Shown one piece after another: positions 31,210-41,612 of a stretch of DNA of 42,237 nt (within the stretch, counting starts at the first letter, position 1; each line of letters starts with the position of its first letter). The DNA comes from a bacterium. Lineage in GTDB: Bacteria; Sysuimicrobiota; Sysuimicrobiia; Sysuimicrobiales; Segetimicrobiaceae. The translations under genes and the position numbers were made by a program. The stretch spans positions 1-42,237 of the forward strand of contig DATGHU010000003.1 of assembly GCA_035307765.1 (NCBI GenBank). Direction: 5' to 3'. The notes beneath the pieces were generated by a model that had not been told where the DNA came from, made no database searches, and was given only the letters and a program-made list of their open reading frames with translations.

Positions 31210-33129
31210 GTGCGGATGGGGTCTCCGGGGATGAAGATGTCTCCCACGGGCACCCCCCTGCATCACCGATTGTTGGGGATCATCAACGAGAATTCCAAGA
31301 AGGGCGGCGATGTCACCGCCGCGTGGCTGGCCGGCTTGCTCTCGGCCCCGCTGGCGGAAGTGGAAGCGGACCTCAAGGCGCTGGTGGCGCTGGGAAACGT
31401 CATTCAGGTCCCGAGCGAAAACGGCGAGGCGCACTACGCCGTCGCCCCCAGGCGCCGGTTTCTCGGGGAGCTCCTGGTCGAACTGGGGCTGTTGACCGCC
31501 GCGCAGCTGCAGGAGGCGCTGGCCGAGCAGGCCCGAACGGGCGAACGGCTCGGTGCCATTCTGCTGGCGCGGCGATACGTCGCCAAGCAGGACCTCGGCA
31601 GGACGCTGGAGCTGCAGCACGGCATCCCCTATGTCAATCTCTCCGCCCAAGCCATCGACGAGCAGTTGGTGCGAAGCCTGCCGGAACGGTTGCTGATGGA
31701 TCACAAGGTCGTGCCGTTTGCCCGCCGCGGCGACGAGATCGACCTGGCGATGCTCGACCCCACGGACATCCTGGCGAGCGATGCCGTGGGACGGTACCTG
31801 AAGGGGCACGTGCGGACGTTTCTGATCACGGAAGACGACTTCGCCTGGGCGGTGAGCAAGTTCTTCGACGTGAGCCGGAAAGTCGGCGAGAGCCTCGTCG
31901 AATTTTCCGCGCCCGATCGCGAGGAGACCGAAACGCTGACGGTCTCGGTCGCGGATACCTACAACGATCCCCCGGTCGTCAGGGTCGTCAATACGGTGCT
32001 CAACGACGCCGTCCGGATCGGGGCCACCGACATCCACATCGAACCGGAAGCCGATGACACCCGGATTCGGGTCCGTGTGGATGGGATGCTGATGGACAAA
32101 GCGAGCCTTCCCCGTTCCATCGGGGACGCGGTGGCCTCCCGGCTGAAGGTGCTCGCCGGCATGGACATCGCCGAGCGCGTCCGACCCCAGGACGGACGGA
32201 TGCAGTTTCGGGTTGAGGATCGCGAGTACGACATGCGGATCGCCACCCTGGGGACGACGTTCGGGGAGCGCACGGCGATCCGGTTGCTCAGCACCCGAAA
32301 CGTCCTGGTCGGCCTCGATCGGCTCGGATTGTTCCCGGAGCAGCAGGAGTTGCTGGTGGAATTCATGGCGGCGCGCTACGGGATGGTCCTGGTGACCGGC
32401 CCCACGGGCAGCGGGAAGACGACGACCCTCTACGCGTCGCTGAGCCACATCAATCAACCGTCGAGAAACATCATGACGATCGAGGACCCGGTGGAGTATC
32501 GGTTGCGGGGGATCACCCAGATCCAGGTCCGCGAGAAAGCGGGGGTGACTTTTGGGATGGGCCTCCGGGCCATGTTGCGGCATGATCCCGACGTGGTGAT
32601 GGTGGGGGAAGTCCGGGACTCGGAGACGGCATCGATTGCCGTGCACGCCGCCCTGACCGGGCACCTGGTCTTGAGCACCCTGCACACCAATAGCGCGGCC
32701 GGCGCTATGGTGCGGCTCTTGGACATGGGTATCGAGCCGTACCTCCTGACCTCATCGCTGATGGCGGTGATCGGGCAGCGGCTGGTGCGGATCCTGTGTA
32801 AGGCCTGCAAGCGCCAATATCGCGCCCGAGAGGAGGATCTCTTGACGCTCGGGTTCGCGACCGATGCCGACGTGGCCCTGTACGAGCGCGTGGGGTGCCC
32901 GGAATGCGGCGGGTTGGGCTACAAGGGGCGGACCGGCGTGTACGAGATCATTCGGCTGACCGACACCGTCCGCGACCTCGTGCAGCAGCGGAAGCCCGAA
33001 GTCGAGTTGATGAACGCCGCCCGGGCCGACGGGACGCAAATGCTGTGGGAGGTGGGGGTGCGAAAGGTCCTCGACGGTGTCACGACCGTCGAGGAGATGC
33101 AGCGGCTGATATCGTCCGAGATGCACTGA
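31210..33129 (+). CDS. pilB: Type IV pilus assembly ATPase PilB (GspE family)
   Basis: 639 residues from GTG 31210, or 632 from ATG 31231 (GGATGGGG upstream); the start is not settled. The N-terminal ~70 residues are a winged-helix-like stretch. Residues ~80-200 form the GspE N-terminal (MshEN-like) domain: RRFLGELLVELGLLTAAQLQ. The ATPase core has Walker A GPTGSGKTTTLYASL (about 396-410), Asp box DIHIEPEADDTRIRVRVDG, Walker B RHDPDVVMVGEVRDSETA, and His box GHLVLSTLHTNSA. A zinc site, CKACKRQY and CPECGGLGYKGR, follows. It powers pilin extrusion by the PilC platform encoded next. A retraction ATPase (PilT) is not seen in the window. Confidence 0.95.
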   Translation: MRMGSPGMKMSPTGTPLHHRLLGIINENSKKGGDVTAAWLAGLLSAPLAEVEADLKALVALGNVIQVPSENGEAHYAVAPRRRFLGELLVELGLLTAAQLQEALAEQARTGERLGAILLARRYVAKQDLGRTLELQHGIPYVNLSAQAIDEQLVRSLPERLLMDHKVVPFARRGDEIDLAMLDPTDILASDAVGRYLKGHVRTFLITEDDFAWAVSKFFDVSRKVGESLVEFSAPDREETETLTVSVADTYNDPPVVRVVNTVLNDAVRIGATDIHIEPEADDTRIRVRVDGMLMDKASLPRSIGDAVASRLKVLAGMDIAERVRPQDGRMQFRVEDREYDMRIATLGTTFGERTAIRLLSTRNVLVGLDRLGLFPEQQELLVEFMAARYGMVLVTGPTGSGKTTTLYASLSHINQPSRNIMTIEDPVEYRLRGITQIQVREKAGVTFGMGLRAMLRHDPDVVMVGEVRDSETASIAVHAALTGHLVLSTLHTNSAAGAMVRLLDMGIEPYLLTSSLMAVIGQRLVRILCKACKRQYRAREEDLLTLGFATDADVALYERVGCPECGGLGYKGRTGVYEIIRLTDTVRDLVQQRKPEVELMNAARADGTQMLWEVGVRKVLDGVTTVEEMQRLISSEMH

Positions 33130-33133
33130 CCCG

Positions 33134-34336
33134 ATGCCGACCTTCGAATATGCCGGTCGCGACGTGCGGGGCGGCCTCGTCCGGGGACGGGTCGAGGCGG
33201 ACGACGATTTGCAGGCTCGGGCGCAACTTCGTCGGGACGGATACTTCGTCACCGCGCTGCGCGAGTCGGTCTGGGCCCCGCGGCACGGGACGGGCGTGCG
33301 CAATCGGGCCGAAGTGGCGATGTTCACGCACGACCTGGCGATGCTGCTCGAGGCCGGGCTGCCCCTCCTCCAGGCCATCGAGGTCATGGGCGAGCACTCC
33401 GCGGACCGGCGGATGGAGGACGTCCTGCAGCAGCTCACCGTCGACATCCGCGAGGGGAAGAAATTCTCGACGGCGCTGGCGCGGCATCCCGATCTGTTCT
33501 CCCCCATGTACGTGGGACTCGTCAGCAACGGCGAGATGGGCGGGAGAATGGGCATCGCGCTGGAGCGGTTGGCGGGGTTCCTGGAACGGGATCTCATCTT
33601 CCGGCAGAAGGTGCGGGACTCCCTCATCTACCCGGGGCTCGTGCTCGCGATGGCGGGAGTTGTCCTGACCGTGTTCATCGTCTACATCATCCCGGCGTTC
33701 GACCGTGTCTACCGGCACGCCGGGAGTTCGTTGCCCCCGCTGACGAGAGCGCTGCTCGCCTGGAGCTCGGTGGTCCGGGCCAGCCTCCCCGTGCTGGTGC
33801 CGACGGCGATCGTGGTGCTGGCGGTGCCCCCGGTCCGCCAGGTGGTCTGGACGGCCCTGGCCGGCCCCCTGCAGCGGCTGGTGCTCCGGGTGCCTCATGC
33901 CGGGCGGCTCGCCCACACCGCGATGCTGGGCCGATTTGCGCACGCCATGTCCATGATGCTGGCCAGCGGCGTCCCGCTCCTGTCGGCGCTGGACGTCGCG
34001 GGCGAGGCCGTTGGGGCCGGAGAGTTTCGCCCGGTGCTGAGGACGCTGAGGGAGACGGTGGTCGAGGGCCAGCGCCTGACCACCGCGATGCGGAAGACCC
34101 AGTGGTTTACGCCGATGTTCATTCGGATGACCAGCATCGGGGAAGAAACGGGCCAGTTGGACGTCATGATGACACGCGCGGCAACCGTGCTGGACCGGGA
34201 ATTCGACGTGCGCATGCGGCGGTTCCTCGCCCTGCTGGAGCCGGCCCTGACCCTGGTGGTCGGCGCCGTGGTCGGGGTGATCCTGCTGGCCCTGTATCTG
34301 CCGATCTTCGGGTTGGGGAAGGCGCTCATGCATTGA
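33134..34336 (+). CDS. pilC: Type IV pilus platform protein PilC (GspF family)
   Basis: 400 residues from ATG 33134, four bases after pilB. Typical start PTFEYAGRDVRGGLVRGRVE, then two GspF repeats. The first has VAMFTHDLAMLLEAGLPLLQAIEVM and VRDSLIYPGLVLAMAGVVLT with a transmembrane helix. The second has LGRFAHAMSMMLASGVPLLSALDVA and RFLALLEPALTLVVGAVVGV with the last helix. A middle membrane stretch lies near VLVPTAIVVLAVPPV. The protein sits in the inner membrane above PilB and feeds pilins into the growing fibre. Its gene is followed by the major pilin 50 bases on. PilM, N, O and Q genes are absent from the window. Confidence 0.94.
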   Translation: MPTFEYAGRDVRGGLVRGRVEADDDLQARAQLRRDGYFVTALRESVWAPRHGTGVRNRAEVAMFTHDLAMLLEAGLPLLQAIEVMGEHSADRRMEDVLQQLTVDIREGKKFSTALARHPDLFSPMYVGLVSNGEMGGRMGIALERLAGFLERDLIFRQKVRDSLIYPGLVLAMAGVVLTVFIVYIIPAFDRVYRHAGSSLPPLTRALLAWSSVVRASLPVLVPTAIVVLAVPPVRQVVWTALAGPLQRLVLRVPHAGRLAHTAMLGRFAHAMSMMLASGVPLLSALDVAGEAVGAGEFRPVLRTLRETVVEGQRLTTAMRKTQWFTPMFIRMTSIGEETGQLDVMMTRAATVLDREFDVRMRRFLALLEPALTLVVGAVVGVILLALYLPIFGLGKALMH

Positions 34337-34386
34337 GATTTTGGGCATATCACCGATCTATGGGAGAGCCCGAAAGGATGGGTCGT

Positions 34387-34737
34387 ATGCGGACGGTGCG
34401 GAGCGAAAACGGCTTTACGTTCATGGAAGTGCTGGCGGTCGTGATGTTGCTGGGGATCCTGGCGCTGGTGGCGCTGCCGAACTACTTCGGCACCCAGGCG
34501 GGGGCCCAGCAGGCGGTGCGCAAGTCGAACGTCGAGGCGATCAACACGGCGATCGCCCTCTACCAGTACAACAACAGCGGGGCGTGCCCCGGGCAAGCCG
34601 GCCAGCCGGCGTTCAACGCCTTCATGGGCAATGTGGTGTACTTCCCGGACGGGCAGCCACTCGATCCCACCGCGAGCCCGCCGTCCAGCGCGTCGTTCAA
34701 CACCAACTACAGCAGCGTGACGTGCCGCACCAAGTAG
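34387..34737 (+). CDS. Major type IV pilin, copy 1
   Basis: 116 residues from ATG 34387, with AAAGG 9 bases upstream; ATG 34378 and 34360 are in-frame alternatives. A short basic leader MRTVRSENG is cut before FTFMEVLAVVMLLGILALVALPN, a perfect prepilin site with Glu5. The mature protein is only 107 residues: helix SNVEAINTAIALYQYNN, then a short D-region bounded by two Cys (GACPGQ and VTCRTK) with PDGQPLDP between them. This is the small G-type-pilin-like architecture of Gram-positive and deep-branching bacteria. Copy 2, 45 bases downstream, differs at only 7 of the 107 mature residues. A small hairpin follows the stop. Confidence 0.92.
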   Translation: MRTVRSENGFTFMEVLAVVMLLGILALVALPNYFGTQAGAQQAVRKSNVEAINTAIALYQYNNSGACPGQAGQPAFNAFMGNVVYFPDGQPLDPTASPPSSASFNTNYSSVTCRTK

Positions 34738-34755
34738 GTCCGCGGAAGCCGGACC
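34737..34755 (+). terminator. Small hairpin between the two pilin genes
   Basis: 6-bp stem GGTCCG/CGGACC with 7-base loop, starting at the last base of the first pilin stop codon, without a T-run. It could stabilise or attenuate the upstream pilin message, a known way of raising major pilin over downstream genes. Confidence 0.3.
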
Positions 34756-34782
34756 GGTGAGGGGATGAGGGAGGTGACAGAT

Positions 34783-35133
34783 ATGAAGCGCGTGTCAGGG
34801 GAAGGCGGGTTTACGTTCATGGAGGTGCTGGCGGTCGTGATGCTGCTGGGGATCCTGGCGCTGGTGGCGCTGCCGAACTACTTCGGCACCCAGGCGGGGG
34901 CCCAGCAGGCGGTGCGGCAGTCCAACGTCGAGGCGATCAACACGGCGCTGGCGCTGTACCAGTACAACAACAGCGGGGCGTGCCCGGGGCAAGCCGGCCA
35001 GCCGAACTTCAACGCCTTTATGTCCAATGTGGTGTACTTCCCGGACGGGCAGCCGCTCGATCCCACCGCGAGCCCGCCGTCCAGCGCACCGTTCAACACC
35101 AACTACAACAACGTGACGTGCAGGACGAAGTGA
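34783..35133 (+). CDS. Major type IV pilin, copy 2
   Basis: 116 residues from ATG 34783, with a strong site GAGGGAGGTGA 5 bases upstream, better than that of copy 1. Leader MKRVSGEGG, then FTFMEVLAVVMLLGILALVA as in copy 1. The mature protein is identical to copy 1 except for seven substitutions (for example Lys/Gln in the helix, Ala/Asn, Gly/Ser and three in the C-terminal loop), most of them in the exposed half. The tandem pair arose by duplication. Nucleotide identity is also very high through the helix region, suggesting recent duplication or ongoing gene conversion. The two may co-polymerise, or one may be a variant exposed under some condition. Confidence 0.92.
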   Translation: MKRVSGEGGFTFMEVLAVVMLLGILALVALPNYFGTQAGAQQAVRQSNVEAINTALALYQYNNSGACPGQAGQPNFNAFMSNVVYFPDGQPLDPTASPPSSAPFNTNYNNVTCRTK

Positions 35134-35220
35134 GGCCCACGGCGAGTGCAGCAGAGGCGGTGCGGAGGGGTCCCATGCCGGGTTGATGGCATCGGCGTGA
35201 CGCCAGGGGGTCCCACCCTC

Positions 35221-35667
35221 ATGGCGGCTCGATCCGGTGTGCGGGGATTCACGCTCACCGAAATCCTGGTTGTGACGGGCCTGCTCGCGGTCCTGCTCTT
35301 GGCCACGCTCCCCAATCTCGCCGTCCCGGACGCCGTCCCGACCGCGCAGGCCGCCCGCCAAGTGGCCGCCGACATGGGACTGGCCCGACGTCTGGCGATC
35401 GCCGACCACGTGAACTACCTCGTCACGTTCGCCCCGGCGGCTGGCCCCTACTCTTCGTACACCGTGGCGCCTCAGGGCGGCCCCCCCGATCCGGACTTCC
35501 CCAAGCCCCTCCCCGCCGGGGTGGTGATCACCGGCACCCAGCAGGTCACCTTTGCCCCATCCGGCGCCGCCACGGCACCCGCTGCGCTTGCCTTCGCCAA
35601 AGGCGCCGCCGCCGCCCAAGTGCAGGTCGCCTCCGCGACCGGATTCGTCCAGGAGACCGGTCCGTGA
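35221..35667 (+). CDS. Prepilin-like protein, FimT/GspH type
   Basis: 148 residues from ATG 35221, with AGGGGG about 10 bases upstream. Prepilin site GVRG/FTLTEILVVTGLLAVLLL, with Glu at +5 and the usual hydrophobic helix. Next is AARQVAADMGLARRLAIADH, the helix typical of FimT/GspH, then a short Pro- and Ala-rich beta domain. There are no cysteines, unlike the FimT-like protein of the first cluster. It is the first minor pilin of the main operon, coupled to the following gene by GTGA. It should help start fibre assembly at the membrane. Confidence 0.86.
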   Translation: MAARSGVRGFTLTEILVVTGLLAVLLLATLPNLAVPDAVPTAQAARQVAADMGLARRLAIADHVNYLVTFAPAAGPYSSYTVAPQGGPPDPDFPKPLPAGVVITGTQQVTFAPSGAATAPAALAFAKGAAAAQVQVASATGFVQETGP

Positions 35668-36077
35668 ACCGCGAGGCGGGGTTCAGCCTGATCGAGGTGC
35701 TCGTCGCCACCCTGATACTCGGGTTGTCGATCGTCCCGTTGATGCAGCTGTTTCCGGGACTCGTGAACACCGCTCAGGATGACGAGATCACGACGCGGCT
35801 CGGCACCGTGGCCGCGAGGCAAATGGAGGCGGTCACGACCAGCCTGCACGCCAACATCACAAGCTTGGGCTTCGGGACGAGCTCCGCCGCTTGCGCCGAT
35901 CTCCCGCAGTGCCTTGTGCAGTCGACGATCACGAGCGAGGCCTCGAGCGCCACGCCGGGGGTCGGACAGTTGGTCGACGTCCGGGTCATTGCCTGCGCGG
36001 ATGCGAACGGCAACAATACCTGCGACCCCGGCGAACGCCAAGTCGAGTACGATGCCAAGATTACCTCGCGGCCGTAG
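35664..36077 (+). CDS. Prepilin-like protein, PilV/GspI type
   Basis: 137 residues from GTG 35664, overlapping the preceding stop. Leader MNREAG, then FSLIEVLVATLILGLSIVPL, a canonical prepilin site and the PilV/GspI-like helix with Pro at about position 24. The globular part has four Cys (ACADLPQC, VIACADANGNNTC), probably two disulfides. The DANGNNTCDPGERQVEYD stretch is rich in Asp/Asn and could bind calcium, as the D-x-N-G-N loop suggests. The following gene starts 26 bases before this one stops, in another frame. A minor pilin role is inferred from family and position. Confidence 0.86.
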   Translation: MNREAGFSLIEVLVATLILGLSIVPLMQLFPGLVNTAQDDEITTRLGTVAARQMEAVTTSLHANITSLGFGTSSAACADLPQCLVQSTITSEASSATPGVGQLVDVRVIACADANGNNTCDPGERQVEYDAKITSRP

Positions 36078-37542
36078 CCTCCCCCGAGACGCCGGCGCCA
36101 CCCTCGCCGAGCTGCTCGTTGTGGTTATGCTCCTGGCGCTGATCGTGGGGGCCCTCTACCCGCTGCTCTATAGCGGCCAGCAGGCCCAGGGCTACGCCGG
36201 CCGCCGCCAGGAGCTGATCCAGAGTGGTCGGGTCGCCCTCGACAAGCTCCTCCGCGAGCTGCGCGCGGCGGAGTCCTTCCGTACGCTGACCCCCGGAGAC
36301 ATCAGTTTCACCCTGAACTGGGGCGACGGCTCGGACGCCGCGCCGACGGTGGAATATGCGCTCAACGGCGCGACGCATAACCTCGAGTATCGGTGGCGCG
36401 CGGACTACGATTACCGCGCGCAGATCACCGTGCACGCAGCGAGCACGGTGACGACCCCGTATGCGGCCTCGGTCACCTTCAACCATGCGGCCCTGGTCCT
36501 GGCGGGCAAGAGTTTGGCCAGCGGAGACGACGTCCGCGTGCGGTATTGGAATGGCAGCACGATGGTCGAGTTGGACCGGCTGGTCGATCCGACCTCGGCC
36601 TGGAACAGCGCCACGACGACGGTGTGGTTTGCGCTGCAGGCCCCCATCGCGAGCGGCAAAACCGACGGCAACTACTACCTCTACTACGGCAATCTTGCCG
36701 ATGCGAACCCGCCCGCAAACGGCGCGAACATCTTTCTCGACTACCAGGATGGGACCACGCTCGACGGGTGGACCCGGCGCGATGCGAATCCCGGGGCGTA
36801 TTCGACGTCCGCGGCGAACGGGTTCATCTTTCAGACGGCGGCCGGGACGGGCTTTCGAGAACTCACCAAGAACGTCCCCCACGGCGACGTGGAGATCTTC
36901 TGGGGGTTCTCGAGCGCAGTGACCGACGCACGCGACGGTCTCGACGCCGGGGTGAGCGCCCGCCTTGCCGACGATGGGCACGGGTATCGCCTGACCGTGG
37001 GCGATCAGAACAATACCAGGCTGCGCATCGACTACTGGGCCGGTTGGAGCGGCGGCGGGGGGACCATCAAGAGTGTCGTGGCGCCGCTCGTTCCCGGGGG
37101 GCGCTATTTCGGGCGATTCTACCTGGTTGGATCCACCCTGCAGGCGAAGTTCTGGGCGGCGGGGCTCCCCGAGCCGCCGGGGTGGACCCTCGCGGCGATC
37201 GACGGGCGCAGGGCCAACGGAAACCACTACGGTCTGCTGGATGGCAATAAGGCCCCGGAGAACCACACGCACTCCACCGTGATCATCCGGCCGCGGGTCC
37301 CGGTCGACCCGACCACGACGCTCGGCCCGGAAACCTCGGGCACCCGCCCCGACGCCCTGGTCCCGCTGGCGGGGCCCTTCCGGTCGCTGGCGGTGGCGTG
37401 CTTCGACGCGAAGGATCTCTCTATCCCCTGCGCCCCAACGACGCCCGTCCGGACCGTCCAGGCGACGCTCGTGGTGATGGATCCGACCGGGCAGGTGCCC
37501 GATCTCACGCTGACCGGCCAGGCCTTTCGGAGAAGCCCATGA
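36052..37542 (+). CDS. Prepilin (PilW/GspJ-like) fused to DUF2341/lectin-like domain
   Basis: 496 residues from ATG 36052. The leader MPRLPRGRSLPRDAG precedes ATLAELLVVVMLLALIVGAL: prepilin Gly, Glu at +5, hydrophobic helix, then SGRVALDKLLRELRAAESF as in PilW/GspJ. Instead of ending at ~200 residues, the chain carries a DUF2341-like module at about 110-225 (YRAQITVHAAS, VRVRYWNGSTMVELDRLVD, NYYLYYGNLADANPP). A concanavalin-like beta stretch follows at ~225-410 (LDYQDGTTLDGWTRRD, VSARLADDGHGYRLTVGD, GRFYLVGSTLQAKFWAAG). Minor pilins of this layout could place a carbohydrate-binding or adhesive head at the pilus tip. The tail (VRTVQATLVVMD) returns to PilW-like sequence, so the module is an insertion. 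Confidence 0.85.
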   Translation: MPRLPRGRSLPRDAGATLAELLVVVMLLALIVGALYPLLYSGQQAQGYAGRRQELIQSGRVALDKLLRELRAAESFRTLTPGDISFTLNWGDGSDAAPTVEYALNGATHNLEYRWRADYDYRAQITVHAASTVTTPYAASVTFNHAALVLAGKSLASGDDVRVRYWNGSTMVELDRLVDPTSAWNSATTTVWFALQAPIASGKTDGNYYLYYGNLADANPPANGANIFLDYQDGTTLDGWTRRDANPGAYSTSAANGFIFQTAAGTGFRELTKNVPHGDVEIFWGFSSAVTDARDGLDAGVSARLADDGHGYRLTVGDQNNTRLRIDYWAGWSGGGGTIKSVVAPLVPGGRYFGRFYLVGSTLQAKFWAAGLPEPPGWTLAAIDGRRANGNHYGLLDGNKAPENHTHSTVIIRPRVPVDPTTTLGPETSGTRPDALVPLAGPFRSLAVACFDAKDLSIPCAPTTPVRTVQATLVVMDPTGQVPDLTLTGQAFRRSP

Positions 37543-38072
37543 TCCCTTCCGCGGCTCACACCTCCCGGCTGTCTGCGTGGGCCGCCTCGGCCGGGCGGGA
37601 AGACGGGCTCGCGCTCCCTCTGGCGATGGTCGTGGTGCTGATCCTGTCCGCCCTCATGCTGGGGCTTGCGCAAACGACGCTCTCCGAGATCAACACCGCG
37701 CTCCCCACCGATCGAGATGTGCGGGCGAACTATCTGGCGCAGGCCGCGCTCGAGGATCAGCTCTACCGGTTGAAGGCAAACAAGGATGCGGGGGCTATCC
37801 CCCCCACGAACTATCCGGTCACGGCGGGGCAGGAGACCTGGTACCGCACCACCCTCACCTGCCTCCTGAACTGCGCGACGAACTTCGAGACCCGGCGCTG
37901 GCAGATCGTGGCGACCGGGGAGATTCACGCGCCGGGATCCGCAACCGTCCTGCAGGATCGGGCCGTTCGTGCCGTGGTGGAGATTCATTACGGCGGCAGC
38001 GGCGGGTCGTTGTACCAGTTTCCGAACCCCGGGGGGGTGCTGATCCTCCGCTGGGAAGAGGTCTACCCGTAA
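37539..38072 (+). CDS. PilX-like pilus-assembly protein
   Basis: 177 residues from ATG 37539, overlapping the previous stop (ATGA). A 20-residue leader, then REDGLALPLAMVVVLILSAL (membrane helix without the classical prepilin Glu), then LGLAQTTLSEINTALPTDRD and ANYLAQAALEDQLYRLKAN, the usual PilX pattern. Normal length for the family, with two Cys (LTCLLNCATN). It is the smaller counterpart of the 543-residue PilX-like protein of the first cluster. The last gene of the main pilus operon, it ends 46 bases before the convergent mrfB stop. Confidence 0.83.
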   Translation: MIPSAAHTSRLSAWAASAGREDGLALPLAMVVVLILSALMLGLAQTTLSEINTALPTDRDVRANYLAQAALEDQLYRLKANKDAGAIPPTNYPVTAGQETWYRTTLTCLLNCATNFETRRWQIVATGEIHAPGSATVLQDRAVRAVVEIHYGGSGGSLYQFPNPGGVLILRWEEVYP

Positions 38073-38083
38073 CGACTTCGATC

Positions 38084-38119
38084 GATCGCGGCCGCGAGGG
38101 TCACGCGGCCCGCGACGAT
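38084..38119. terminator. GC-rich hairpin between convergent operons
   Basis: An imperfect 10-bp stem (about 38087-38096 with 38104-38114, one bulged C) lies between the PilX-like and mrfB stops. It has no T-run on either side but could stop both converging transcripts. Confidence 0.35.
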
Positions 38120-39333
38120 CAGGCCTCCTGGTGAATGGGGCGGCCGGCGAGCCGCTCGATCTTCCGCCGGAGGAGCGCGACGAGGTCGGGGGGCCGTGAG
38201 ATGCCATGCCCCTGACTCTCGAGCGTGGCGTGCAGGGCTTCCGCCGCAGCGGCGAGCGCTCCCGCCCGGTCACCGGCGCGCTCTCGGGCTCGGGTCACCT
38301 CAAGCAGGAGACGCGCTCGGTAACGGTCCGGCGCCCTCCACGCGAGGCGTTCCTGCTCCCACCGCTCGTGAACCCGCTCGGTCTCACCGAGCAGGCGATA
38401 CTGCCGCACACACCGCCTAAGGATCCGCCACCGGTCGCGGAAGTCTTGGGGCGTTCCCAGCGCCCGCTCGAAGCAGGACACCGCTTGCCGGGGCTTTCCC
38501 CGCCGGGCGAGGAGGACCCCCGCACCCTCCCAGTCGATCGGGCGGTGAGATCCCGAGGGATCGCGCAAGACCTGCGCCACCGCCGCGTGGAGGCCGATGA
38601 GGGCAAGCAGATCCGCCCGGTTGTGTGCGAGGACCGGCTCGAGCGCGCCGCGCTCGGCGGTCCGGAGGTAGTGGACGTACAGGCCGGGGATCTCCCATCC
38701 CGGGATATCGCCTTCTCGGGGCGCACCCAGAATTTCGGTCTCCAGCGCGCCGAGGCGGTGCGTCCCCAAGACCCGGTGCCACAACCGTCGGGCGGTGTGG
38801 ATGAGATCGGTGTGGACATCGACGGTGACCCCACGGAGGCGGTTGAGGATGAACCGGGCTTCGAGCATCGGCCAGTCGAATCGCTGGCCGTTGAAGGTGA
38901 CGAGGTGTCGGGTGCGGGCGAGCCGCTCCTGCAGTCCGGTGAGGAAGCGCCCCTCCGCACTCAGTCGGCGGAGGAGGATCTGCTCGACCACGAGCGAGGC
39001 CCCCTGGAGCGACGCCAGCCCGACCAGGAAGACATAGGTCCCCGTGCCGCCGGCGAGGCCGGTGGTTTCGGTGTCCAGCCAGAGGGTCTGCGCGGGGTCG
39101 CAGCCGTCGTGCTCGTCGATGGCGCCAAAGTATTCCCCGAGGGCGCCGGACCCGTGGCGGTGGGCGAGCGAAAACCGCGCCCGGATGACCTCGACCCCCT
39201 CCCCCTCCCCCGACGGCGGCGGAACGCGGGGCCGCGTCGCCGGCCGGGTCGGCCCGAGGGCGCTCAGGCGCCTGAGCTTTTCCCGCACGCCGGAACCCGC
39301 TCCCGAGGAAGCGGCAGGGTCAGGCGGGCACAC
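38119..39333 (-). CDS. mrfB: MrfB-like DEDD exonuclease (YprB, RNase H-like domain)
   Basis: 404 residues from GTG 39333, starting 14 bases inside mrfA. The RNase_H_2 domain spans about 80-260 with DEDDh residues visible: D87 and E89 in LWLDTETTGLAGG, D153 in FNGQRFDWPML, and H237-N-x-x-D241 in LAHNRADLLALIG. A C-terminal helical part (about 262-390; RGKPRQAVSCFERAL) is TPR-like, as in the Bacillus subtilis protein. MrfB acts with helicase MrfA in a mitomycin C lesion repair route separate from UvrABC (Burby and Simmons). The gene order mrfA-mrfB and the overlap match that pair. An N-terminal arm of ~45 residues rich in Pro/Arg is not conserved. Confidence 0.9.
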   Translation of the reverse strand: MCPPDPAASSGAGSGVREKLRRLSALGPTRPATRPRVPPPSGEGEGVEVIRARFSLAHRHGSGALGEYFGAIDEHDGCDPAQTLWLDTETTGLAGGTGTYVFLVGLASLQGASLVVEQILLRRLSAEGRFLTGLQERLARTRHLVTFNGQRFDWPMLEARFILNRLRGVTVDVHTDLIHTARRLWHRVLGTHRLGALETEILGAPREGDIPGWEIPGLYVHYLRTAERGALEPVLAHNRADLLALIGLHAAVAQVLRDPSGSHRPIDWEGAGVLLARRGKPRQAVSCFERALGTPQDFRDRWRILRRCVRQYRLLGETERVHERWEQERLAWRAPDRYRARLLLEVTRARERAGDRAGALAAAAEALHATLESQGHGISRPPDLVALLRRKIERLAGRPIHQEA

Positions 39334-41575
39334 AGGCGTTTTTGAGCAGGTGCAGCGTGTGCTGCTTTCCGCGGGGTCCGATCTCGAGCACCGGCCCGAC
39401 GCACGAGGGGCATCCTTCGCCGCATCCGCAGGCCGTGACCAGCGAGGTCGCCGCGGCGATGAGGTCGGTGCGCAACGCGAACAGGCGCTCCGCTTGGCCG
39501 ACGCCGCCTGGCACCCGTTCGAACAACGTCACCGTCGGCTCGCCGGTGTGCGGGGACCGGATTTCGACGACCGAGCCGAGATCGCGGGGGTCGGACATGA
39601 GGTACAGCGGTGCGACGTTGGAGAGCGCGTGGGCGAGGCCCAACAGGGCGCTCTGAACCTCATCCGGCTGGAGTCCCGGGGTGCGCGCGGGCGCGAACGT
39701 CCACCAGGCCCCGGTGGTATGCAGCGTGGTTTCCGGCAGGTGGATTGTGCCGAAGCCGACGTTTTCGTGCGTGGTGAGCTTGAGCTTCTTGTAGATCGTC
39801 GGGCGGAATGTCACGACCACCTCGCCGTGGGCCGCCCCCGGGGCTTCGGCGAACTCTTCCAGCACCCGGATGTCCACGGCGGTCTGGGCGTCGGTGTAGT
39901 AGTCGACGTTCACCCGCCGGACGTAGGCCTTGCGTTCCTCCCAGTCCAGACGGTCGACGTGATGTTGCTGCCCGAGGTGAAGATAGATGGCGTCCTCGTG
40001 CACGAACGCCGGCGCCGCTGCGAGATCGACCTCCCCGATGACCCGCGGTGCCGGATCGGTCACGTCGATGATCACGACATTCTCGGTGGACGCGCTCCGC
40101 AGGCTGACCTCCTCGGCCGGATACGCTTCTGCGACATAGTGCCAGGCGTCTTCATCGTGGTGCAGGACGCGCTCGTCCTCGAGGTAGGCGAGAATCTCGG
40201 GGAGCGTGCTCGGGCCAAACGCTTCCCCATCGCGGACCGGCAGTTCGAACGCGGCACACTTGAGGTGGCTGGTGAGGATGAGCAGGTTGTCGGGGTTCGT
40301 GCGGGCCTCCTCCACGGGGTGCGCGAAGAGATAGTCGGGGTGGGTGACGATAAACTGATCCAGCGCGGCGCTTGACCCCACGAGGATGGCGAGGGCGAGG
40401 TCGCCCCGTCGTCCGGCCCGTCCCATCTGCTGCCAGGTGCTGGCGATCGTGCCCGGGTACCCCACCAGGATGGCCGCGCTCAGTTGGCCGATGTCGATCC
40501 CCAGTTCGAGCGCGTTGGTCGCGGCGACGGCGCGCACCGTGCCCTCACGCAATCCCGCCTCGATCCGGCGGCGTTCGCTCGGCAAGTACCCGCCGCGGTA
40601 TCCACAGATCGTCCCGGGATCCAGGCCGCGCCGGGCGGCGTCCGTTTGCAGGTAGGTCGTCAGCAGCTCCACGCTGAGCCGAGTCCGACCGAAGAAGATG
40701 GTCTGGACCCGGCCGGCCAGGAGGTCCCCGGCCAGCGCCACCGCCTCCCGGACGGCGTCCCGCCGGATGCCCAGGGCCTGGTTCACGACCGGCGGGTTGT
40801 AGAGGCCGATCGCTCGAGGCCCGACCGGGGCCCCGCTTTTGTCGATCAGCGTGACCGACCGGCCGATCAGGCGTTCGGCGTGCTCCCGCGGATTGCCGAT
40901 GGTCGCCGAGCAGCAGATGAACTGAGGGGTGCTCCCGTAGAACTGGCAAATCCGCAGGAGCCGACGGATGACGTTGGCGAGATGCGATCCGAACACGCCC
41001 CGGTAGTGGTGCAGTTCGTCCAGGACGACGTACCGCAGGTTCTCGAAAAGGCGGAGCCACTTCGTGTGGTGCGGCAGGATCGCCGTGTGCAGCATGTCCG
41101 GGTTCGTGACCACGATGTGGCCGGCCGCCCGGATCGTTCGGCGAGCGTCCGGCGGCGTGTCCCCGTCGTAGGTGTACGTCCGGAGGTCCACGCCGAGGGC
41201 GGCGATGATCTCATGGAGATCATCCACCTGATCGCCCGACAACGCCTTGGTCGGGAACAGGTAGAGCGCTCGGGTGTCTTCGCGTTTGAGCATCGCATCG
41301 ACGACCGGGAGATTGTAGCAGAGCGTCTTGCCCGAAGCCGTCGGGGTGACCACGACGATGTCGGCACCCTGAACCACCGCCTGGTACGCCTCGGCTTGAT
41401 GGGAGTACAGCTGCTGGATCCCCCGCTGGTGAAGGCCTTGCCTGAGGCGGGGATCGAGATCCTGGGGAAACTCCGCCAGGCGGGCCGCAACCGCCGGGAA
41501 GGTGTGCCACGCCGTGAACTGGGGGGCAAATCGGGGCCGCGTTTGAAGGGCTGTGAGGGTTTGCTCCAGGTTCAT
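39320..41575 (-). CDS. mrfA: MrfA-like DEAD/DEAH-box DNA helicase (YprA)
   Basis: 751 residues from ATG 41575, with GGAGG 6 bases upstream. Helicase motifs in order: SHQAEAYQAV (Q-like), TPTASGKT (motif I, 77-84), LDELHHYRG (motif II, DELH 185-188), CCSATIGNPREHA (III), VRAVAATNALELGIDIG (V), and STWQQMGRAGRRG (VI). The last ~100 residues hold the MrfA zinc-binding domain (DUF1998-like), with the Cys cluster CGCGEGCPSC near 716-725. In B. subtilis this ATPase remodels DNA at mitomycin adducts and cross-links together with MrfB. A perfect LexA box stands 24 bases upstream. Full length, no damaged motif. Confidence 0.94.
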   Translation of the reverse strand: MNLEQTLTALQTRPRFAPQFTAWHTFPAVAARLAEFPQDLDPRLRQGLHQRGIQQLYSHQAEAYQAVVQGADIVVVTPTASGKTLCYNLPVVDAMLKREDTRALYLFPTKALSGDQVDDLHEIIAALGVDLRTYTYDGDTPPDARRTIRAAGHIVVTNPDMLHTAILPHHTKWLRLFENLRYVVLDELHHYRGVFGSHLANVIRRLLRICQFYGSTPQFICCSATIGNPREHAERLIGRSVTLIDKSGAPVGPRAIGLYNPPVVNQALGIRRDAVREAVALAGDLLAGRVQTIFFGRTRLSVELLTTYLQTDAARRGLDPGTICGYRGGYLPSERRRIEAGLREGTVRAVAATNALELGIDIGQLSAAILVGYPGTIASTWQQMGRAGRRGDLALAILVGSSAALDQFIVTHPDYLFAHPVEEARTNPDNLLILTSHLKCAAFELPVRDGEAFGPSTLPEILAYLEDERVLHHDEDAWHYVAEAYPAEEVSLRSASTENVVIIDVTDPAPRVIGEVDLAAAPAFVHEDAIYLHLGQQHHVDRLDWEERKAYVRRVNVDYYTDAQTAVDIRVLEEFAEAPGAAHGEVVVTFRPTIYKKLKLTTHENVGFGTIHLPETTLHTTGAWWTFAPARTPGLQPDEVQSALLGLAHALSNVAPLYLMSDPRDLGSVVEIRSPHTGEPTVTLFERVPGGVGQAERLFALRTDLIAAATSLVTACGCGEGCPSCVGPVLEIGPRGKQHTLHLLKNACVPA

Positions 41576-41598
41576 CGTCTGCCTCCGTCCTCCGAGTT

Positions 41599-41612
41599 CG
41601 AACATATGTTCG
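41599..41612 (-). promoter_or_regulatory. LexA (SOS) box upstream of mrfAB
   Basis: CGAACATATGTTCG is a perfect 14-bp palindrome matching the Gram-positive LexA consensus CGAAC-N4-GTTCG in both arms. It lies 24 bases before the mrfA start codon, just upstream of its ribosome site, where a bound repressor would block transcription. Confidence 0.8.

Follow-up and report, generated by a model that had tools for sequence, protein, structure and literature searches.

Is the mrfA-mrfB gene pair of this bacterium under the control of LexA? MrfAB, which was described only recently, repairs mitomycin lesions independently of UvrABC; B. subtilis offers a genetic model, and we know of no prior SOS assignment of mrfAB. 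The 42,237-nucleotide stretch of DNA analysed here (the window) contains both genes and, just upstream of mrfA, a palindrome that resembles an SOS box. We consider below the locus itself, the LexA proteins and boxes of the genome and its phylum, and the conservation of the box within and beyond that phylum.

The mrfA-mrfB locus

The sequence CGAACATATGTTCG at positions 41599–41612 was found by direct reading to be a perfect palindrome. The mrfA start codon ATG occupies positions 41575–41573 of the minus strand; 23 bases separate it from the box, whose near edge is 24 nt from the A of the ATG. The preliminary description had reported an exact palindromic box at this distance from mrfA, and its reading was confirmed. 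A second exact CGAAC-N4-GTTCG was not found in a scan of the whole 42 kb window. The features of the locus are as follows.

41599–41612, no strand assigned: candidate LexA operator (SOS box) CGAACATATGTTCG, an exact match with arms conserved in orthologous mrfA promoters
41589–41593, minus strand: additional GGAGG between the box and the mrfA ATG, read from the sequence
41582–41586, minus strand: likely ribosome-binding site GGAGG, 6 nt 5' of the mrfA ATG, predicted from the sequence
39320–41575, minus strand: mrfA, yprA-type SF2 DNA helicase, 751 aa, assigned from Pfam and PDB 6znp
38119–39333, minus strand: mrfB, DEDDh-type exonuclease, 404 aa, GTG start, assigned from Pfam RNase_H_2 and PDB 8un9

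MrfA includes the Pfam domains DEAD, Helicase_C, WHD_HRQ1, and MZB (MrfA Zn-binding), with DEAD, Helicase_C, and MZB scoring above the cut-offs, and aligns with PDB 6znp (deposited as YprA) over residues 17–745 (857.9 bits, E 5.5e-257). Four cysteine residues (C716, C718, C722, and C725; CGCGEGCPSC) of the C-terminal MZB/DUF1998 region are nearly invariant in the alignment. MrfB, which contains the Pfam domain RNase_H_2, matches PDB 8un9, “Exonuclease MrfB” (E 4.1e-30), and the alignment spans the DTET motif, the aspartate of NG-FDWP, and HN-x2-D, that is to say, the DEDDh core of an RNase H-like fold. These structural and domain matches bear out the gene names mrfA and mrfB that had been given from the sequence alone.

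The two genes share 14 nt, at the stop of mrfA and the start of mrfB; therefore, they most likely form one operon, of which mrfB is the second gene. The order is kept elsewhere: mrfB is located downstream of mrfA in all 24 loci of the window's phylum that could be assessed, and directly 3' of mrfA at every assessable locus of the phylum, Chloroflexota, and Bacillaceae sets. No clear sigma-70 promoter was found in the sequence around the box, so the geometry by which LexA would repress mrfA is one that we infer.

The score of MrfA against NCBIfam TIGR03817 (helicase/secretion neighborhood putative DEAH-box helicase) was 649 bits, below the curated cut-off of 874, and generic control through nearness to secretion genes was rejected on this score. 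Genes for a T2SSE/PilB ATPase, a T2SSF-like protein, and pseudopilin-like proteins lie on the plus strand of the window (31210–38072), convergent with mrfAB; 2 pilin-like open reading frames (ORFs) among them (34102–34737 and 34765–35133) appear by eye to be near-duplicates.

LexA paralogues and operator classes

The genome to which the window belongs (G000) encodes 2 full-length LexA proteins, on contigs C13 and C44; both have the DNA-binding domain of LexA together with an S24 peptidase domain, and both match solved LexA structures. The corresponding loci are C13:37044–37235 (L012) and C44:137614–137805 (L013). The preliminary description had proposed 3 checks, all of which gave a positive answer: (i) the search for LexA yielded the 2 full paralogues, so that its counter-case, a genome without a LexA of the matching class, does not apply; (ii) boxes precede both lexA1 and lexA2; and (iii) a genome scan placed the motif class before recA, dinB, and ruvC. 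It had also spoken of a Gram-positive-type LexA, which is correct as to the class of operator; however, the bacterium is a member of a small phylum of its own, and Chloroflexota use this class as well.

Exact CGAAC-N4-GTTCG occurs at 11 sites in the 3.82 Mb genome, compared with 3 for a reversed, non-complemented control, and at 295 sites compared with 74 for the reversed control when the counts of all 43 genomes in the phylum sample (43 species, one order) are added up. Reading of the 11 sites revealed exact boxes preceding mrfA, dinB (IMS domains), ruvC (RuvC), and the genes of an HhH/MutY-like glycosylase and a radical-SAM protein. Another exact box (C5:27794–27807, L002), which is the identical 14-mer CGAACATATGTTCG, is located between the genes of a GAF-domain protein and an ArsR-type HTH regulator. 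The other 5 sites resemble background, several of them lying within coding sequence; L007 and L008 (inside coding sequence) and L011 (at the start of trxA) were set aside as such. The one-base variant CGAAC-N4-GTTTG adds lexA1, recA, and dnaB. As judged from these sites, the box-bearing gene set of the genome is a recognisable SOS regulon.

Some further sites deserve description. CGAACGTATGTTCG precedes the gene of the radical-SAM protein (C8:14225–14238, L004), which by eye is spore-photoproduct-lyase-like, and this gene is a candidate further member of the SOS set. At C34:107647–107660 (L049), CGAACATATGTTTG precedes the gene of a protein of 215 aa that has no match in Pfam; the next ORF, also uncharacterised, resembles by eye the N-terminal part of a B-family DNA polymerase, and the 2 ORFs possibly form an uncharacterised SOS cassette. 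The same 14-mer lies immediately 5' of dnaB (C44:119149–119162, L050), where an intein-like insertion downstream of the SVGKC motif apparently breaks the frame. CGAACAACTGTTTG (C50:43312–43325, L052) is located upstream of the type IV pilus gene pilM and could be a chance occurrence.

LexA was found in 42 of the 43 phylum genomes, most of which have 2 full-length copies, and the recognition-helix sequence STVHxHL is common to LexA1 and LexA2. The LexA and RecA genes of the phylum, used as positive controls, are preceded by boxes with no more than 1 mismatch in 34 of 41 cases for lexA1, 33 of 34 for lexA2, and 30 of 38 for recA. These boxes fall into distinct forms. Most recA and lexA1 boxes are asymmetric (CGAAC-N4-GTTTG), and the lexA2 boxes are CGTAC- or CGAAC-N4-GTTCG, usually paired, nearly all of which keep GTTCG. 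The symmetric box was found before none of 38 recA genes and none of 41 lexA1 genes, whereas it precedes 24 of 27 mrfA genes. The box of recA has changed to CAAAC-N4-GTTTG in family f4 (L278, L285, L286, L287, and L291–L293) and in genome G017 of family f7 (L330), and these recA operators may be an example of LexA operator drift; the f4 lexA1 sites keep a GAAC-N4-GTTTG-like form and the f4 lexA2 boxes keep GTTCG.

The split between symmetric and asymmetric boxes can mean either that a single LexA binds the two forms with different affinity or that LexA1 and LexA2 divide the work. In the strict form of the latter, the mrfA box would serve LexA2 only, and 2 circuits would exist, one in which LexA1 acts on lexA1 and recA through the GTTTG half site, and one in which LexA2 acts on lexA2, mrfAB, and perhaps dinB and ruvC through the symmetric GTTCG form or CGTAC-N4-GTTCG. 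Such an arrangement agrees with the 2 full-length copies in most of the 42 LexA-positive genomes, with the distribution of the symmetric box over recA, lexA1, and mrfA, with the near constancy of GTTCG before lexA2, and with the move of the f4 and G017 recA boxes to CAAAC-N4-GTTTG while the f4 lexA2 boxes stay as they are. However, the box types interchange at mrfA itself: a congener (L016) has CGAACATACGTTTG, which is of the GTTTG type, before mrfA, and the roles of LexA1 and LexA2 would therefore overlap. Moreover, the 2 proteins share their recognition helix, and asymmetry could simply tune the affinity for a single LexA. We regard 2 separate circuits as rather unlikely. If the affinity for one LexA is graded instead, a stronger mrfA box would imply tighter repression. 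In either case, the symmetric boxes of mrfA and the asymmetric boxes of recA and lexA1 offer a test of whether the SOS response is divided between 2 LexA paralogues.

Conservation of the mrfA box within and beyond the phylum

Sufficient upstream sequence was available for 27 mrfA orthologues of the window's phylum, in which the box was sought within 150 bp. In addition to the 24 loci with an exact box, 2 more are reached when 1 mismatch is allowed (26 of 27), and the background in the same set was 0 for the reversed pattern and 0.07 for shuffles. In an alignment of the promoters anchored at the box, the information content was 1.95 bits at each of the ten arm positions, 0.36 at the inner four positions, and 0.26 in the flanks. 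The position and the arms of the box are kept across families at 63–86% protein identity, and the flanks are nearly random; the mrfA promoter sequence thus appears scrambled apart from the 2 half sites. Because of its conservation at the orthologous position, the mrfA box stands far above chance. There is one clear loss, in G014 of family f4 (L040), where mrfA has only CGAACACATATACG, with 2 mismatches. A diverged MrfA paralogue (44% identical; C34:176963–179134, L053), which is present in most phylum genomes, served as a negative control, and a box was found before 0 of 12 of its genes in the phylum.

Outside the phylum, a box with no more than 1 mismatch is present at 28 of 29 mrfA loci of one Chloroflexota class (20 exact), usually near −30, and mrfB is downstream at 28 mrfA loci. 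In the Bacillaceae sample, all 30 mrfA loci have CGAAC-N4-ATTCG (1 mismatch) at −56 to −58, directly followed by a TAnAAT −10-like element. Across phyla, the distance from the box to the mrfA start is typically −28 to −60. A site with no more than 2 mismatches is present in 26 of the 30 Bacillales genomes closest to the MrfA chain of B. subtilis, compared with 0.66 in shuffles; the usual site is CAAACAAATATTCG, which is placed similarly to the other mrfA boxes. One of these genomes encodes an MrfA 97% identical to the PDB chain; its only box is this two-mismatch form, which by our reading takes up the 17 bp that separate a −35-like TAGCCA from a −10-like TAAACT. A box with no more than 1 mismatch was found at only 18 of 80 named mrfA loci of other groups; the box is absent or weak in most of the named Paenibacillaceae, Clostridia, Calditrichota, and Atribacterota loci, and most of the Paenibacillaceae and Clostridia loci have none. 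Control through the mrfA box is, on this distribution, apparently widespread, not universal.

The same distribution bears on 2 further readings. The box could be real and yet control a divergent upstream gene, not mrfAB, as the contig stops 625 bases upstream of the box and the neighbour is partly seen. However, the start of mrfA is 24 nt away, the box tracks mrfA across phyla, typically at −28 to −60, and a convincing ORF just upstream of the box was not seen in the window; we hold this reading to be very improbable. That the palindrome matches by chance or serves an unrelated regulator, as might be suspected from the approximately 3 exact matches per 3.8 Mb that the reversed control predicts and from the genomic exact sites set aside above, several of them within coding sequence (L007, L008, and L011), is extremely improbable and was rejected by phylogenetic footprinting, given the conserved arms and position amid nearly random flanks and the same motif class before recA and lexA of the same genomes.

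Proposed SOS control and comparison with known systems

We consider it highly likely that LexA controls mrfAB in this organism, and mrfAB is very probably induced by the SOS response here and in at least 2 other large bacterial groups. LexA would bind the mrfA box, repress the operon, and permit its induction by damage, in the following manner. In undamaged cells, a LexA dimer would sit on the box and block the transcription of mrfA-mrfB. Upon DNA damage, RecA filaments would bring about the self-cleavage of LexA, by which the operator would be cleared, and the helicase MrfA and the exonuclease MrfB would then be produced together and remove bulky or mitomycin-type lesions. LexA control of mrfAB is probably ancestral in the window's phylum and would also exist in Chloroflexota and Bacillaceae. 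The proposal of SOS control in the preliminary description is thus supported by the conservation of the box and by the presence of LexA, but the control would not be peculiar to this organism, since boxes occur in Chloroflexota and Bacillaceae and, in degenerate form, in the B. subtilis group.

A wider reading, to which we give somewhat less than an even chance, is that the SOS control of mrfAB has an ancient origin and extends over several phyla, including B. subtilis, where a conserved degenerate CAAAC-N4-ATTCG box between the −35-like and −10-like elements of the mrfA promoter would have gone unrecognised, and that the symmetric boxes of mrfAB in the window's phylum form a tighter operator class, separate from that of recA and lexA1 and possibly served by the second LexA.

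The conserved LexA box would place mrfAB in the SOS regulon over a wide bacterial range and would explain how the helicase–exonuclease pair could stay off until needed; the proposed control is directly testable in B. subtilis. The preliminary description knew of no such assignment for B. subtilis, and in keeping with this, a full-text literature search yielded no SOS assignment for mrfA/yprA, a result that is provisional because the paper defining the primary B. subtilis regulon list lies outside the search. Neither SOS nor LexA is mentioned in the B. subtilis MrfAB papers PMC11194089 and PMC12458937, and MrfA is absent from a large review of B. subtilis fork repair (PMC10804225). The kind of operator is already known from LexA operons; what is provisionally new is mrfAB as a broadly conserved SOS operon.

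The closest known systems are the following. (i) The Firmicutes LexA motif TACGAACATATGTTCGTA has the same 14-mer as its core (PMC2248561), and the B. subtilis LexA consensus is CGAAC-N4-GTTCG (PMC4551915); the operators of the Bacillota LexA (DinR), or Cheo box (CGAAC-N4-GTTCG / CGAACRNRYGTTYC), accordingly share their 14-mer core with the box described here (PMC2248561, PMC4551915). As in Bacillota, the box is promoter-proximal, boxes of the same class precede lexA and recA, and LexA has an S24 domain; unlike in Bacillota, the box is located on mrfAB, in another phylum, and there are 2 LexA paralogues instead of one. (ii) The gene order is that of the B. subtilis mitomycin repair operon mrfA-mrfB (yprA-yprB), with 6znp matched over nearly its full length and 8un9 matched as well, whereas the near-B. 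subtilis genome with the 97% identical MrfA has the two-mismatch CAAACAAATATTCG in place of the exact box of the window. (iii) Two lexA genes are present in Leptospira interrogans (PMC3789691) and, as cited in that paper, in Pseudomonas putida and Xanthomonas. The organism of the window resembles these bacteria in having 2 full LexA paralogues; unlike in two-lexA bacteria of the Leptospira interrogans type, both operator classes here are variants of one Cheo-type motif, throughout the phylum.
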